DNA from: Terriglobia bacterium
GTDB taxonomy: Bacteria > Acidobacteriota > Terriglobia > Acidiferrales > UBA7541
Direction of reading: 5' to 3'
Assembly (NCBI GenBank): GCA_020072785.1
Contig: JAIQGG010000001.1
Span: 620,001 to 684,000 of the forward strand
Length of the DNA: 64,000 nucleotides
Shown: positions 9,401 to 25,625 of the stretch, in pieces
Layout of the letters: each line of letters opens with the position of its first letter
Numbering within the stretch: position 1 is the first letter of the stretch
Translations under genes and position numbers: made by a program
Notes under the pieces: generated by a model
Told to the model about the DNA's origin: nothing
Databases searched by the model: none
The model's input: only the letters and a program-made list of their open reading frames with translations

Positions 9401-9516
9401 TTACTTGTTTGTGGAAATCTTTTGCATACTATTAGGAGGAGTAATACCTTCGTACTAGGACTGTCCTGGAGGGGTTGCCCAATGCCATGTTTCTGGCCTC
9501 CTTGGCCCTACACTGT

Positions 9517-9522
9517 TACAAT
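9517..9522 (+). promoter_or_regulatory. -10 box (TACAAT) with almost no leader
   Basis: TACAAT ends 11 nt before ATG 9534. There is no Shine-Dalgarno in between, so the mRNA would have a leader of only a few nucleotides. Confidence 0.5.
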
Positions 9523-9533
9523 GCAGAAGCAGC

Positions 9534-10610
9534 ATGGCTGATTGGAAGCAGATCCAGGCACGTATCCGCCGCGCCCGCACGGGTGCCGACCCCGCTGGCC
9601 AACTCGAGAAACTCTACGAGAAGACGCGCGACGCCATGGCTGCGTTCGAACTGGCGCGGCATTTCGAGGCTGCGGGACAGATGGCGCAAGCCGCGCGCTG
9701 GTACCGCACGGCTTCCGAAGGCTTCCGCCGGGCTGACTGGAAGAAAAAGGCGGAAGAGGCCGCGGCGCGCCTCGCAGGCGGCGCCGTCACAGAACCACCG
9801 CACGAAGCGGAACTGAGCAGCACGGCCGGAGAGGCCGGAGGAAAAGTGTTCGAATCTGAAACGAATTTCTCGATCGAAGAACCATCTCAAGCCGGCACAG
9901 CAGAAGCAGCGCCGGCAGCCACATTGAGTGCAGCGAGCGCCGCAGAGGAGGGTGGCTCCGTCGAGGGCAGTGCTCCCGCAGACCGCAAGCGCCGCCGGCG
10001 CGGACGCCGCGGTGGACGCAAGCACCGCCGCGGAAGAGAAGCGGCGGCGGCGACGCCGGCAGCGGCGGAAACGCTTGTGCGCCCGGCTCGCCCGGAAGCA
10101 CGGGAACCACGCATGGAACTCCCTGCGGCTGCCCCGGTGATCCGCCGCGTCGAGCATGAGCCTACATACATCTCCAGTGGTGAGGCCACTGGGCCCGGGC
10201 CGCGTGCGCGTTCCGGAGATCCTGCGCTCTCCTCGCGTTTGGCGCACCTGGAGATGCAGTTACGCCGCCTGCTGGCCAGCCCGCTCTCGCTCATGGAGCA
10301 TGCCGACCGGGCCCCGGCGGGACCCGGCGTGTTTCTGATCACCGACGCCGACCAGACCACCTATTACTACGCGGAGAACTGCGCCACCCTGCGCATCGGC
10401 ATCGCCAATTTCCTGCGCAGCAGCGGCACTTCCCGCCGCGGCGAGGAATCCATCAAAGAGCGCTTCGCCGATCATCTGGGCATTCCCGAAGCCCGCGTCA
10501 GCAAATACGTCAACGACCACTGCGTAGTGCGCTGGCTGCAGCTCGACGAAGGCGCTTCCACCTTCGCCCATTTCGTCATTGCTTTGCTGCGTCCCGTGCT
10601 CAACGACTAG
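9534..10610 (+). CDS. protein with TPR-like head, arginine-rich core and conserved C-terminal domain
   Basis: Function not recognised. The 358 residues fall into three parts. The N-terminus (1-80) has a TPR-like helical pair (AAFELARHFEAAGQMAQAAR WYRTASEGF). The middle is low-complexity, Ala/Glu-rich, with a strongly basic patch near residue 145-165 (RKRRRRGRRGGRKHRRGRE) typical of nucleic-acid binding. The C-terminal ~100 residues are folded-looking (GPGVFLITDADQTTYYYAEN, FADHLGIPEARVSKYVNDHC). The GVFLITD...YYY spacing recalls a GIY-YIG start, but the motif is not met and no catalytic residues can be assigned. It is monocistronic between its own -10 box and a terminator. Confidence 0.6.
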   Translation: MADWKQIQARIRRARTGADPAGQLEKLYEKTRDAMAAFELARHFEAAGQMAQAARWYRTASEGFRRADWKKKAEEAAARLAGGAVTEPPHEAELSSTAGEAGGKVFESETNFSIEEPSQAGTAEAAPAATLSAASAAEEGGSVEGSAPADRKRRRRGRRGGRKHRRGREAAAATPAAAETLVRPARPEAREPRMELPAAAPVIRRVEHEPTYISSGEATGPGPRARSGDPALSSRLAHLEMQLRRLLASPLSLMEHADRAPAGPGVFLITDADQTTYYYAENCATLRIGIANFLRSSGTSRRGEESIKERFADHLGIPEARVSKYVNDHCVVRWLQLDEGASTFAHFVIALLRPVLND

Positions 10611-10672: not shown

Positions 10673-11022
10673 TGGATGCGAATTTTCTCTTCCGGCGCGA
10701 CGAAATTGCCGGAGCGGCCTCTGGAGAAAGAGGAAAAATAGCCGGAAGGACCTGAAAGTAACCCGGTTAGCACCTCGCGGCTTTCCCCGTTGACTGCCGC
10801 AGATGACCGTTCGACCCCCGAATTCGACCATTCACCGCAAGGGGCTGGATTTGCCCCGGTCGAAGAGGCAAGCTACGCTGGCTCAAAGACTTAGAACTGC
10901 CAGGTTGGGCATGGTAGCCTGACAGTACCCGTGGGGATTCATCCGGACGATTCTGGGGGTTGCCTATCCGCAGGGGTTGTAGCGAGATCGATGTTTCGAA
11001 AGAAAAGAGAGGGCAAAGAAGT
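10673..11022 (+). other. 350-bp leader/intergenic region before the radical SAM gene
   Basis: No ORF with support. It holds two small hairpins: TCCGGC/GCCGGA (about 10694-10718) and GGGGC/GCCCC (10841-10857). TTGACT occurs at 10790 but has no -10 at a suitable distance. Directly before ATG 11023 an AGAGAGGG gives the ribosome site. The length suggests an untranslated leader, but I match it to no known riboswitch. Confidence 0.4.
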
Positions 11023-13173
11023 ATGTCTAAGATCGGCACACAGGTCATGAGGGCTGTGGACGCGGCCGTCTGCAAGGTGGCGGGCCTCACTTTCAACACT
11101 GTCCAAATCTTCAACAAGCGCAATCCGAACCCTTCCTTCACTCCCCAGTGGTCGGATAAGCCGCTACTCAAGTCCTGGGAAAAAACTAAGCCGACGCTCG
11201 GCTGGCCCCGGCAAACCGATTCGCTCTGCCCCGACTGCGTGAAAGAAGCGCGCGACGCCATCATCAACGGCAAGAAGGACTGGCGCGACCTGATGAACGA
11301 GAAGGTCGGCGAGATCAAGGCTCAGATTATCGAGCGCGACGGTCAGATCTGGATGGTCAAGGAATGCCCCATCCACGGCCACTATGAAGACATGATGGCC
11401 TACGACTCCAAGTTTCTGGATTGGATCGAGAAGAACTTCCCCGGCCGCGACATCCCCGCGCACAACGACGAAGACCTGCACAAACACGGTTCCAGCAATG
11501 TGCGCTACGGCCGCGGCTCGGTCCTCACCGTGGACCTCACCAACCGCTGCAATATGATGTGCGACCCTTGCTTCATGGACGCCAACCAGGTCGGCTACGT
11601 CCACGAACTTTCCTGGGAAGAGGTCCAGGAAGTCCTGGACAACGCCGTCAAGATCAAGCCGCGCCGCCAGATGTCCGTGCAGTTCTCCGGCGGCGAGCCC
11701 ACCATGAGCCCGTACTTCCTGGACGCCATCCGCTACTCCCGCAAGGTCGGCTACAACAGCGTGCAGGCCGCCACCAACGGCATCGAGTTCGCCAAGAGCA
11801 AGGAGTTCTGCCGCCAGGCCTTCGAAGCCGGGCTGCGCTACGCCTATCTGCAGTTTGACGGCATCGGCAACGACGCCAACAGCCACCGCCAGGTCGGCAA
11901 CCTCTTCGACGTCAAGCTGCGCGCCATCGAGAACATGCACGAGGCGGGCATCGAGATCGTCCTGGTCGTGACCATCGTCAACAACGTCAACAACGACCAG
12001 GTCGGCGCCATCGTCAAGTTCGCCATGGAGAACCCCAAGAAAATCGCCTTCGTCAGCTTCCAGCCGGTCTCTTTCACCGGCCGCGACGAGGACATCACTC
12101 CGGAGCGCCGTCTCCGCCAGCGCTACACCCTCTCGCACCTGGCCAATGACGTCAGCGCCCAGGTGGGCAAGGTCGAGCCCACCCGCGATTGGTTCCCTAT
12201 TTCTTTCATCTCCACCTTCGCCGGCTTCTCCGACCTGGTGCACGGCCCGGAATCGCAGTGGGGCGCGCTTTCCTGCGGCTGCCACCCCAACTGCGGCGTG
12301 GGCACGGCCATCATGATCAACAAGGAGACCAAGGAGTGGGCGCCCGTGCCGCGCTTCCTGGATGCTCCGCAGCTGGTCAAGGACGTCACCGCTATCACCG
12401 ACGCCGCCCGTGGCAAGAGCCTCTCGAACTTCATGATGGGCCTCGCCCTGCTCAAGAACTACAAGCCCTTCCAGGCCCCCAAGGGCCTCACGCTCATGGA
12501 TCTTTTCAAGAAGTTCGACAAGACCTGGGCGCTTACCAAGAAGTCCGAGTTCAAGTACGGCAAGACTTCCCCGGATCGTACTTACGAAGACGCTATCAAG
12601 CGCCGCCAGAGCGACCCCTGGAATTTCCTGTTCATCGCCGGAATGTGGTTCCAGGATCTCTTCAACTACGACTTCCGCCGCACCGAAATGTGCATCATTC
12701 CCTACGGCACGCAGCAGGGCGAAATCTCCTTCTGCGCCTACAACACCGGCATCGGCTGGCGCAAGATCATCGAGAACATGCACAAGAACGCCACCGTGGC
12801 CCAGTGGTACAAGGAACACGGCAAGCACGAGATCTACGCCAAGGGCAAGAGCGTCAACCTCGAAACCTACGAGCACTCGCTCGTGATTGACGCCAACGAC
12901 GCCGCCCGCGTCCGCCATCTGGAGCACGACATTCCGCTCACCGCGGCCGAAGAAGACCGCATTCGCCGCAAGCGCGCCCTTGAGGAGCAGGCCAAGGTTC
13001 GCGCCATCTATGAAGAGCTGGTGCTCAAGAAGCCCCAGCCCACCGTCGTGCAGATCGGCTCCGTCCAGGACATCGCCAAGGCCGTTCCGGCAGACTTCGG
13101 CAAGGCCAATGGCAACGGCAATGGCGCCGCAGCCGCCAAGGCCAAGGAAGCCGAAGCCGTTGCCGGCGACTAA
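11023..13173 (+). CDS. radical SAM protein resembling tetraether lipid synthase (Tes)
   Basis: The chosen ATG 11023 follows AGAGAGGG and gives 716 residues (an in-frame ATG at 10960 has no ribosome site). An N-terminal Cys/His region (SLCPDCVKEA, KECPIHGHYED) precedes the radical SAM core with CNMMCDPCF (CxxxCxxC, binding the SAM-cleaving 4Fe-4S cluster) and the SAM-binding SGGEPT. A distal cysteine cluster SCGCHPNCGVGT is followed by a long C-terminal part with MCIIPYGTQQGEISFCAYNT. This order matches the archaeal MJ0619-type family, whose characterised member joins lipid tails to make membrane-spanning tetraethers. Acidobacteriota make membrane-spanning iso-diabolic acid lipids, so a C-C coupling role in lipid synthesis is a reasonable inference. 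The exact substrate is unknown. Confidence 0.75.
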   Translation: MSKIGTQVMRAVDAAVCKVAGLTFNTVQIFNKRNPNPSFTPQWSDKPLLKSWEKTKPTLGWPRQTDSLCPDCVKEARDAIINGKKDWRDLMNEKVGEIKAQIIERDGQIWMVKECPIHGHYEDMMAYDSKFLDWIEKNFPGRDIPAHNDEDLHKHGSSNVRYGRGSVLTVDLTNRCNMMCDPCFMDANQVGYVHELSWEEVQEVLDNAVKIKPRRQMSVQFSGGEPTMSPYFLDAIRYSRKVGYNSVQAATNGIEFAKSKEFCRQAFEAGLRYAYLQFDGIGNDANSHRQVGNLFDVKLRAIENMHEAGIEIVLVVTIVNNVNNDQVGAIVKFAMENPKKIAFVSFQPVSFTGRDEDITPERRLRQRYTLSHLANDVSAQVGKVEPTRDWFPISFISTFAGFSDLVHGPESQWGALSCGCHPNCGVGTAIMINKETKEWAPVPRFLDAPQLVKDVTAITDAARGKSLSNFMMGLALLKNYKPFQAPKGLTLMDLFKKFDKTWALTKKSEFKYGKTSPDRTYEDAIKRRQSDPWNFLFIAGMWFQDLFNYDFRRTEMCIIPYGTQQGEISFCAYNTGIGWRKIIENMHKNATVAQWYKEHGKHEIYAKGKSVNLETYEHSLVIDANDAARVRHLEHDIPLTAAEEDRIRRKRALEEQAKVRAIYEELVLKKPQPTVVQIGSVQDIAKAVPADFGKANGNGNGAAAAKAKEAEAVAGD

Positions 13174-23085: not shown

Positions 23086-24252
23086 TCAGAACTCTTCTTC
23101 GTCGTCGTTGGGCTTGAGCGCCGTGGTCTTGGCGGTGAGCTTCACGCCGTGCGTCCGCGCGCCGGAGAGGATGGCCCGGCGCGTCTCCGCCGGCAGCATC
23201 TCCGGGGCGAAGACGCCCGCGAGTTCCCGCGGAAAATTTTTTACGAACAGCGAAGCCATGTGCGCCGTGATGTACGCTACCGGCGTGGTGAACAGTCCCC
23301 GCTGGCGGATTTGCAGCAGCGTGGGGAACGCGCAATCCGTCCGCATCAGCAGCGGCTTTTCTTTTTTCTCCCCGCGCACGAGCACGGTTGCGGCGAAGCG
23401 CGCGTTCTGCAGCAGGCCCTTGCGAATCAGCCTGGCCACCAGCCGCGGCGTGGGCGTCTGCGGAAAGCGGTGCCGCGCCATGCCCCGCGAGCGGCTCAGC
23501 TTGCCCTGCCGGTGCCAGCGCCGCAGGCGCTCGATCTCGTTTCCCCCGATCTTCACGTCCAGCTCGCGCATGGGAATGAAGTGCGGCAGCGTGGCCACTT
23601 CGTCCTGCGCCGCCAGCACCACCCGCGCGCTCCCTACCGGCGCAAGGAACCGGAACGTTTCCGCCTCCGCGAAGCGCTTCCCGTAAACAAATTTCCCGTT
23701 GCGGTACACCCGCGGGTGCGACACCGCCTCGTCAAAGGAAACTTCCGGCGACCATTGCGAGATCGGGTCGTCACTCTCCATGCTCTCATACAGCCGGATG
23801 TGCACCGCATCCACGCGGTCCAGCGCGTCCGCGGCGCGCCGCACCAGCAAATTAGTCAGCCCCGGCGCCGCTCCGGCGTTGATCAGCGCCGCGCGGTTTT
23901 TCTTCTCGAATTTCCTGGCGTAGCGGAACTGCTCCGCCCGGAACGGGTGCCGCGTGAGGTGCGAGCTGAGGTCCAGGTAGTGCGCGCGCAGGCGCAGCGC
24001 CGCGCGCAGCACGATCTCATTGAACAGGGAAGCCGAGGCGTTGATGATCAGCTGGCAGCCGCGTCCCGCGCGCACCACCCCGCGCAGGTTCCGCGCATTC
24101 ACCGCCACCACCGGGATGCGGCTCTTCTTGCCGAGAAATCGCCGCGCCCGCTCAGGGTCGCGATCGCCGCACCAGACGGTATGCCCCTGTCGCTCGAGCA
24201 GCTGTGCCAGAAGAGAGCCGGTGGCTCCCGCTCCCAGGACGAAGATGCGCAT
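23086..24252 (-). CDS. saccharopine dehydrogenase-like NAD(P)-binding oxidoreductase
   Basis: The 388-residue product begins with a Rossmann motif MRIFVLGAGATGSLLAQLLE. It continues with the saccharopine-dehydrogenase-type middle (LIINASASLFNEIVLRAALR, HYLDLSSHL, ALINAGAAPGLTNLL). The C-terminal half is unlike lysine-pathway enzymes and no substrate can be assigned. It is divergent from moaA with a 57-nt gap to the moaA promoter region. No partner in lysine metabolism is nearby, so a lysine role is not supported. Confidence 0.75.
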   Translation of the reverse strand: MRIFVLGAGATGSLLAQLLERQGHTVWCGDRDPERARRFLGKKSRIPVVAVNARNLRGVVRAGRGCQLIINASASLFNEIVLRAALRLRAHYLDLSSHLTRHPFRAEQFRYARKFEKKNRAALINAGAAPGLTNLLVRRAADALDRVDAVHIRLYESMESDDPISQWSPEVSFDEAVSHPRVYRNGKFVYGKRFAEAETFRFLAPVGSARVVLAAQDEVATLPHFIPMRELDVKIGGNEIERLRRWHRQGKLSRSRGMARHRFPQTPTPRLVARLIRKGLLQNARFAATVLVRGEKKEKPLLMRTDCAFPTLLQIRQRGLFTTPVAYITAHMASLFVKNFPRELAGVFAPEMLPAETRRAILSGARTHGVKLTAKTTALKPNDDEEEF

Positions 24253-24308
24253 CTGGCCGAAACTCTATCACATTCCTTCCTCCAGCCGGTCCGCTCGGCC
24301 TGCCTCCA

Positions 24309-24337
24309 TTGCTCTCAATGGTGAACAGGGGTAGAAT
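24309..24337 (+). promoter_or_regulatory. promoter of moaA
   Basis: TTGCTC (24309-24314), 17-bp spacer, TAGAAT (24332-24337). It implies a ~298-nt untranslated leader before moaA. Confidence 0.65.
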
Positions 24338-24420
24338 ACGGTCGAACTCCGACCTCCGGCGCCTACAGGGGAAACAACCCAGGGTACCGGGGGCGACGCT
24401 CCGGCGGTTCTTGCCCGCGT

Positions 24421-24437
24421 TGACCGCTTCGCGGTCA
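24421..24437 (+). repeat. 17-bp palindromic repeat (family A) in the moaA leader
   Basis: TGACCGCTTCGCGGTCA, identical to the copy at 13658-13674. It lies within the untranslated leader upstream of the structured element. Confidence 0.8.
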
Positions 24438-24480
24438 CCCATACAAAGGGCAGGACGGCCGGCGCCGAGGGCCCGGGTGG

Positions 24481-24583
24481 AAACGCCCGCGCCTCCCGTG
24501 CTTGGAAAGGAGAGCCGCCGAGGGGAAGTTGCCCCTCGGGGCGTAGCGCCCGATCCCAAGCCGGATTCGGGCGTTCTTGTTTT
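24481..24583 (+). promoter_or_regulatory. structured moaA leader with terminator; possible Moco riboswitch
   Basis: The leader contains CCTCC (24492-24496) able to pair with GGAG (24509-24512). Next is an 8-bp hairpin around AAGTTG (24518-24525 with 24532-24539). Last is a terminator-like stem, CGCCCGATCC / GGA-TCGGGCG (24547-24573), followed by TTCTTGTTTT (24574-24583). An alternative pairing AACGCCCG (24482-24489) with CGGGCGTT could compete with that terminator. The gene controlled is moaA, the usual target of molybdenum-cofactor-sensing RNA. The architecture fits a terminator-type riboswitch; the Moco class is inferred from context, not proven by motif match. Confidence 0.45.
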
Positions 24584-24641
24584 CAGCAGAGCTCCTGGCG
24601 TGCTACGCCAGGGAAGGAAATCTAGCCGGCATCACCCGAGC

Positions 24642-25625
24642 ATGATTCTTCAGGACAAATTCGGCCGTCCCATCACCGACCTGCGCATCTCGGTGACCGA
24701 CCGCTGCAACTTCCGCTGCGTCTACTGCCGCTCCGCGAATCCCGAGAACTGCCGCCCCGAAAACGAAATCCTCTCCTGGGACGAATTGCTGCGCCTGGCG
24801 CGCGTCTTCTTTGGTCTGGGCATCCGCAAGATCCGCGTGACCGGCGGCGAACCCCTGGTCCGCCCGGGCGTCGAGGAATTCATCGCCCGCCTGCGCGCCC
24901 TGGGCTTCGAGGACCTCTCCATGACCACCAATGGCCACCTCCTCGCCGAGCGCTGCGACTCCCTGTTGCGCGCCGGCCTGCGCCGCGTAAACGTCAGCCT
25001 CGATTCCCTCGACCCGCTGGCCTTCGAACGCATTACTCGCACCCGTTCCTGCGCCTCGGTCATCGCCGGGATCGACGCCGTGCAGAGCTCCGGCCTGGCC
25101 CCCGCCAAAGTCAACGCCGTCCTCGTTCGCGGTATCAACGACGGCGAGGTGGAGGCCTTCGCGGCCTTCGCCCGCGACCGCGGCGTCATCATGCGCTTCA
25201 TCGAATTCATGCCCCTGGACGCCGACCGCCACTGGACCCGCGACCTCATGGTTTCCGCCGCCGAAGTCCACCGCCGCATCGACGCCCAATGGAAGCTCGT
25301 GCCCATTCCCCACGCCCCCAGCGAAACCGCCCGCAAATACCGCTTCGCCGACGGCGCTCCCGGCGAGATCGGCCTCATCGCCCCGGTCACCCAGCCCTTC
25401 TGCGGCTACTGCTCGCGCATTCGCCTGACCGCCGACGGCAAGCTGCGCACCTGTCTGTTCAGCAAGGACGACCGCGACCTCCGCGGCCTGCTGCGCGGCG
25501 GGGCCTCCGGCGACGACCTGGCCTTCTACATCCGCTCCGTGGTGCACGAAAAGGAAGAGGGGCACCGCATCAACGCCCCGGACTTCGCGCCCCCTTCGCG
25601 GACCATGGTGTTCATCGGCGGGTAG
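24642..25625 (+). CDS. moaA: GTP 3',8-cyclase MoaA
   Basis: ATG 24642 gives 327 residues, the normal length. The N-terminal radical SAM motif CNFRCVYC (CxxxCxxC) binds the SAM-cleaving cluster, with GGEPLVRPG following. The C-terminal CGYCSRIRLTADGKLRTCLF supplies the second 4Fe-4S cluster that binds GTP, and the protein ends with the essential Gly-Gly (MVFIGG). It catalyses the first step of molybdenum cofactor synthesis, GTP to 3',8-cyclo-GTP, for MoaC. No other moa gene is in the window, so it is isolated. Upstream is a long structured leader. Confidence 0.96.
   Translation: MILQDKFGRPITDLRISVTDRCNFRCVYCRSANPENCRPENEILSWDELLRLARVFFGLGIRKIRVTGGEPLVRPGVEEFIARLRALGFEDLSMTTNGHLLAERCDSLLRAGLRRVNVSLDSLDPLAFERITRTRSCASVIAGIDAVQSSGLAPAKVNAVLVRGINDGEVEAFAAFARDRGVIMRFIEFMPLDADRHWTRDLMVSAAEVHRRIDAQWKLVPIPHAPSETARKYRFADGAPGEIGLIAPVTQPFCGYCSRIRLTADGKLRTCLFSKDDRDLRGLLRGGASGDDLAFYIRSVVHEKEEGHRINAPDFAPPSRTMVFIGG

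Follow-up and report, generated by a model that had tools for sequence, protein, structure and literature searches.

A separate clade of Tes-like radical SAM proteins in Acidobacteriota, lacking the cysteines of one auxiliary cluster, is a strong candidate maker of membrane-spanning lipids

Results

The long-form gene and its surroundings

The window (the whole stretch of 64,000 nucleotides that was analysed) carries on its forward strand an open frame of 716 codons, running from an ATG at 11023 to a stop at 13173. Its 716-residue product is a radical SAM protein resembling Tes, the archaeal enzyme that joins two lipid tails into a membrane-spanning lipid; we refer to this protein and its kin as the long form. 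The motif GAGAGGG at 11007–11013, on the same strand and 9 nt before the ATG, is likely the ribosome-binding site of the gene, and a TTG at 10960 is a less likely alternative start. Residues 1–64 (11023–11214), of which residues 2–31 are predicted to be helical, form an N-terminal extension not present in the Tes protein MJ0619. The extension closes on a conserved stretch, NPSFTPxWSxKPLLKS..KTxPxLGWPRxTD. An N-terminal membrane anchor was considered and rejected, residues 1–36 having a hydrophobic moment no better than that of shuffled sequences (lowest fraction 0.061).

A sequence-only reading had recognized in this frame a Tes-like series of motifs, and all of those it quoted were found in the protein: SLCPDC (residues 67–72), KECPIHG (113–119), CNMMCDPC (176–183), SGGEPT (222–227), and SCGCHPNCGVGT (417–428). 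In the alignment, 101 of 101 long relatives are identical at C69, C72, C115, C176, C180, C183, C418, C420, C424, C557, and C571, and the conservation of the motifs is therefore far beyond chance. The same reading had ascribed to the protein some 200 additional C-terminal residues bearing two further cysteines. This has to be revised, as C557 and C571 align with C455 and C470 of MJ0619 and fall inside the Tes-homologous C-terminal domain, not in the extension. The true extension comprises approximately 115–130 weakly conserved residues past residues 588–602 or so; in the window protein it is free of cysteine, as is the variable tail of residues 603–716 (12829–13170, forward strand).

A blastp comparison of the open reading frames of the window with 100 loci did not find a conserved lipid-gene operon around this copy, and the gene neighborhood was set aside as functional evidence for it. 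The comparison returned the long gene, its shadow frames and, in close kin, the forward-strand frame at 9459–10610 (a 358-residue protein at 9534–10610), which lies upstream of the long gene in 30 loci, none of them L061 or later, and matches nothing in Pfam or NCBIfam. RelA-like and RidA-like genes (named by eye), a PNPOx-like gene and a beta-lactamase-like gene also surround the window copy; none is consistently retained at distance, and the beta-lactamase-like frame has homologues in 12 loci (two from L061 onward), where their distances vary. The second radical SAM gene of the window, at 24048–25622 on the forward strand, encodes MoaA (TIGR02666, 361.6 bits over residues 201–525 of a 525-residue frame).

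Family assignment and predicted structure

Besides a radical SAM domain, Pfam recognizes in the window protein the N-terminal HMPTM zinc ribbon. The best NCBIfam model is that of Tes (NF045702), with 314.8 bits over residues 64–588 and thus below the curated cut-off of 450 bits; the second is TrsS (NF045646), with 215.8 bits, below its cut-off of 490 bits. The MoaA, NirJ, and AhbC families scored lower and were rejected. Among PDB sequences the best match is MJ0619 Tes (7tol/7tom, 2.3e-57), the runner-up being at 9.4e-07, and the window protein is 29% identical to MJ0619. The UniProt name of MJ0619 is HMPTM_METJA, and passages of the Tes structure paper reject its earlier annotation as a pterin methylase (PMC9433317).

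An AlphaFold model (m5785bb9bfa80) was built from 78 sequences (alignment A1), comprising the window protein and 77 of its 80 nearest loci; L029 and L060 were too short, and L038 was left out. The model has a pLDDT of 73 and a pTM of 0.80, with pLDDT below 50 exactly at several of the metal-site loops. Foldseek matched it to 7tom (E 3.8e-24, TM 0.78 by target length), and VIA likewise placed 7tom first (Z 26.6, rmsd 3.8, 464 residues), the next family being MoaA (Z 17.7). The Tes-like plan claimed from the sequence is thus backed by both the PDB sequence match and the predicted fold, the metal sites being modeled at low confidence. The window protein is a Tes-fold radical SAM protein, yet not a standard Tes: no other NCBIfam subfamily matches it better, and it falls short of the Tes cut-off. 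The 215.8 bits obtained with the TrsS model might point to a TrsS-like protein, or to another radical SAM subfamily with a different substrate, but the Tes model stands 99 bits higher.

Metal sites and active-site residues

Passages of the Tes structure paper describe four metal sites, namely a rubredoxin-type iron held by C9, C12, C33, and H36, an N-terminal [4Fe-4S] cluster with C73, C77, C80, and a histidine as ligands, the radical SAM cluster, and a C-terminal [4Fe-4S] cluster with the labile Met439; Tyr459 is given there as conserved and non-essential (PMC9433317). We compared these residues across 101 long relatives, the acidobacterial short Tes proteins (30 or 31, in two alignments), and MJ0619. 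The residue alignment had 131 rows; five duplicate-locus frames were dropped, frames shorter than 250 residues were left out, and the partial sequences L029 and L060 were kept within the 101 long forms.

The rubredoxin-type C-X2-C ... C-X2-H site, which corresponds to the Pfam zinc ribbon (11227–11376; this and the following features are on the forward strand), is retained: C69, C72, and C115 (C9, C12, and C33 in MJ0619) are found in 101/101 long forms and H118 (H36) in 100/101. The radical SAM CX3CX2C motif, CNMMCDPC at 11548–11571 (C176, C180, C183), is likewise complete in 101/101. Residues 147–165 (11461–11517) occupy the place of the Tes N-terminal auxiliary ligands, and the window protein has there a gap, H155 and S158 instead of C73, C77, and C80. 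Cysteine occurs at these three columns in 0/101 long forms, whereas all three are present in 30/31 short forms, the sole exception being a truncated fragment. H155 is invariant among the long forms and S158 is nearly so.

Toward the C-terminus, SCGCHPNCGVGT (12271–12306) contributes C424, the counterpart in the alignment of the HxxC cysteine that is invariant in Tes, together with the extra C418 (cysteine in 101/101 long vs 4/30 short forms) and C420 (101/101 vs 24/30). The region at 12643–12735 contains M541, C557, Y561, and C571, the equivalents of M439, C455, Y459, and C470; these four residues and C424 are invariant in 101/101 long forms. Because of this conservation, we infer that C424, C557, and C571 are the ligands of the C-terminal cluster; all our statements on cluster ligands in long forms have sequence alignment as their basis. 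The expectation that the auxiliary ligands of Tes would be conserved holds for the C-terminal cluster and fails for the N-terminal one, whose missing cysteines the sequence-only reading had overlooked.

The SAM-contact residues Q268 and S271 of MJ0619 are present as Q347 and S350 in 101/101 long forms. Arg210, which contacts the adenosine in MJ0619, is arginine in 31/31 short forms and Q290 in the window protein; its column holds glutamine in 74, lysine in 11, and histidine in nine of the 101 long forms (94/101 combined). As read from the alignment, this change counts against a long-form active site identical to that of Tes.

Lineage and distribution in Acidobacteriota

Two trees were calculated from rows hand-picked for spread, a quick tree of 85 rows and a mixture-model tree of 40 rows rooted on TrsS-like proteins. 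In the latter the long form is a single clade (100/100) nested inside Tes, and the 85-row tree agrees. The clade joins the short forms L121, L123, and L125 (100/99) on a stem of 1.15 changes per column. Use of the trees was restricted to the long clade and its nesting; long branches were flagged, and a claim on the branching of MJ0619 was withdrawn. Given the nested position, the N-terminal auxiliary cluster was most likely lost on the stem of the long clade. The TrsS-like proteins lie outside the clade of Tes and long forms (100/100) and mostly lack equivalents of Met439 and Tyr459, which, with the higher Tes score, makes membership in TrsS or another subfamily very improbable.

The sequence-only reading had taken the host for a bacterium and pointed to Acidobacteriota. 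Of the 80 nearest loci kept, 79 are titled with acidobacterial groups and the other with Betaproteobacteria; the closest locus, L029 (98% identity), bears the title Terriglobia. Identity to MJ0619 is 28–35% for long forms and 38–48% for short forms. With a threshold of E ≤ 1e-120, the long form was found in 146/151 genomes of the window's class, in 102/104 of the class of G085 (the long proteins of G085 and of L088, titled Blastocatellia, share 93% identity), and in 70/99 of the class of G111. At E ≤ 1e-40 it was found in 0/63 genomes of the class of G026. This class is searchable, since the Tes model retrieves a TrsS-like protein from one of its genomes, G239. The class of G001 is represented by two genomes only, both negative. 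Across the phylum, the Tes model finds a match at 1e-40 in 164/297 genomes. The aligned long-gene stretch of G336, G360, G328, and G354 includes in-frame stops (TAG, TGA), one or two per genome; they probably reflect overrun of the alignment past the true end, in the tail.

A second long-form paralogue, which shares approximately 53% identity with the window protein, is common in family f21 and occurs along with the first in many f21 genomes and a few others (L175, L176, L180, L145, L137). A division of labor between the two paralogues is possible, as iso-diabolic acid (iso-DA) glycerol ethers are reported, in passages of one survey, to be abundant in SD4 strains (PMC13274423).

Linkage to standard tes genes and candidate partner proteins

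Long and standard tes genes are linked in at least three genomes. The standard gene of G243 follows 245 bp after the long gene on the same strand, and in G107 and G065 the two are separated by opposite-strand genes, of the Sortilin/BNR type (Pfam) in G107 and including a similar frame (by eye) and other open reading frames in G065. Long and short genes lie on different contigs in G292, G286, and G310.

A nearby standard Tes could be the enzyme that couples the tails in G243, G107, and G065, with the long form serving the same lipid pathway as a tail-modifying enzyme, for example a methylase for the C5/C6 methyl groups or a ring former for cyclic brGDGTs. The missing cluster and the replaced R210 mark it as an altered enzyme, and the InterPro family of MJ0619 was named class D methyltransferase, according to part of the Tes structure paper (PMC9433317). 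Several observations weigh against a tail modifier: the coupling-cluster residues (three cysteines and the labile methionine) are invariant in long forms, in 27/35 genomes of family f2 the Tes model has only one match at 1e-40, and a standard Tes is missing from the window's genome, where no other protein exceeds 63.2 bits with that model. In these genomes no standard Tes is available as coupler. We consider the tail-modifier explanation unlikely.

Also encoded in the window's genome are two fused proteins, each combining two BcrAD_BadFG domains with DUF2229, in frames of 1168 residues (L154, G000:C2:866000-874000) and 1090 residues (L155, G000:C2:504000-512000). On contig C2 these Ger-like proteins lie at about 867.9–871.4 kb and 506.5–509.8 kb. 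PlsA homologues with two such activation domains are of the validated Ger ether-forming type, although sequence alone cannot yet separate Ger from PlsA for certain, as stated in sections of one paper (PMC13274423). The L155 protein adjoins a frame that resembles, by eye, the large subunit of NiFe-hydrogenase (MAQKIVIDPVTRIEGH).

Discussion

The lineage of the long form, its fold match, the conservation of its residues, and its distribution are observed, and the long form is a strong candidate for the maker of the membrane-spanning lipids for which these soil bacteria are known. We regard the window protein as probably a membrane-spanning-lipid synthase of Tes lineage, from an Acidobacteriota-wide branch that lacks one auxiliary iron-sulfur cluster. 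Its substrate, product, and cluster content we infer; two [4Fe-4S] clusters and one rubredoxin-type iron are predicted, as against three and one in Tes. By analogy with Tes, the radical SAM cluster would split SAM to yield the 5'-deoxyadenosyl radical, which would take a hydrogen off an iso-C15 chain at its methyl end, the chain lying in a hydrophobic tunnel, and the carbon radical so formed would be held as a C–S bond on the C-terminal [4Fe-4S] cluster. The ether bonds would be formed separately, perhaps via Ger-like proteins encoded elsewhere in the genome.

SDs 1 and 3 of Acidobacteriota correspond to Terriglobia, SD4 to Blastocatellia, and SD6 to Vicinamibacteria. A survey of 46 strains reports, in the passages bearing on this, iso-DA in SDs 1, 3, 4, and 6 of the seven SDs surveyed, and 20–40% iso-DA in 17 cultures of SD1 and SD3 (PMC13274423). 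Six Edaphobacter strains had 11.8–30.4% of their fatty acids as iso-DA (PMC11354219), Occallatibacter and its kin had 26.8–49.2% (PMC12935467), and Chloracidobacterium, an organism with two circular chromosomes, is also listed with iso-DA (PMC12816986). The long-form distribution roughly parallels this occurrence, and a role of the long form in iso-DA formation is supported by circumstance only.

E. aggregans makes both iso-DA and brGDGTs and has one Tes homologue, 32% identical to M. acetivorans Tes, and the top bacterial homologues reach 42% (Koribacter) and 40% (Solibacter) against archaeal Tes, according to passages of one study (PMC8941075). The E. aggregans homologue is most likely a long form, because 32% fits the 28–35% and not the 38–48% identity to MJ0619 given above. 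S. usitatus, as described in part of another paper, has brGDGTs but no iso-DA and carries two Tes homologues (PMC10087280). The long form is present in its relatives in Ca. Sulfopaludibacter (L063, L064) and so need not give detectable iso-DA. Also weighing against the synthase reading are the missing N-terminal cluster cysteines, the replaced R210, and the patchier occurrence of the long form (70/99) in the class of G111. On iso-DA tetraesters the passages of one source disagree, a single reference being cited for Koribacter versatilis in one place and for Solibacter usitatus elsewhere (PMC13274423).

The iso-DA of these bacteria might alternatively be made by an Mss-type synthase, the long form having an unrelated general role. 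Mss is the bacterial membrane-spanning lipid synthase that is said to have been validated from Thermotoga maritima (reportedly by Sahonero-Canavesi in 2022); as a control, T. maritima gave no Tes-model match at 1e-40. A general role would also agree with near-universality in two classes, and three of the eight other radical SAM proteins scanned in the window's genome (L003, L091, L093) pass no curated cut-off and could hide an Mss-type enzyme. Mss homologues were reported in 11/97 acidobacterial MAGs from the Black Sea (PMC11868695). Against this stand the parallel between long-form distribution and iso-DA, and the finding that nothing else in the window's genome exceeds 63.2 bits with the Tes model; we find the Mss explanation improbable. 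Whether the long clade is the dedicated iso-DA synthase of Acidobacteriota, a Tes offshoot that has shed one of three iron-sulfur clusters, is almost universal in two or more classes, and differs from archaeal Tes as well as from bacterial Mss, is a more specific proposition, and we consider it evenly balanced.

That Tes homologues might have a role in bacterial membrane-spanning lipids is already published (Zeng 2022; Halamka 2022). The relevant passages count 456 bacterial Tes homologues, acidobacterial ones included, and propose such a role for them (PMC8941075), and the same is proposed for Solibacter usitatus (PMC10087280). What the present analysis adds is a distinct clade poorer in clusters, the pattern of its distribution and, in three genomes, its linkage to standard tes. 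In the literature searched we found no description of a distinct long clade that lacks the N-terminal cluster (the original Mss paper, which may hold related data, lay outside the search), of near-universality of the long form in acidobacterial classes, or of a demonstrated acidobacterial coupling enzyme.

The iso-DA and brGDGTs of soil bacteria underlie widely used temperature and pH proxies. A clade near-universal where iso-DA is common, and absent from another whole class, offers a single target gene. If the proposal is correct, the presence of the long form would mark soil bacteria able to feed the brGDGT paleothermometer. It would also suggest that the N-terminal auxiliary cluster is dispensable for sp3–sp3 coupling, which bears on the mechanism of Tes.

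Among known systems, Mss is likened to the long form by its proposed reaction, the tail-to-tail coupling of fatty chains. The bacterial short Tes of the Solibacter/Koribacter type, scoring over 450 bits, belongs to the same phylum, sometimes to the same locus, and is the nearest outgroup in the tree. It differs from the long form in its length of mostly ~520–570 residues, its full set of auxiliary cysteines, and its occurrence in 32/297 acidobacterial genomes. With Tes itself (GDGT-MAS; MJ0619, 7tol, 7tom) the long form has in common the fold, the rubredoxin-type C-C-C-H site, the radical SAM motif, the C-terminal cluster cysteines, and the residues Met439, Tyr459, Q268, and S271. It departs from MJ0619 in the absence of the N-terminal auxiliary cluster cysteines and the replacement of R210, and adds an N-terminal extension of ~60 residues, an insertion in the rubredoxin domain, a C-terminal tail, and two extra invariant cysteines.
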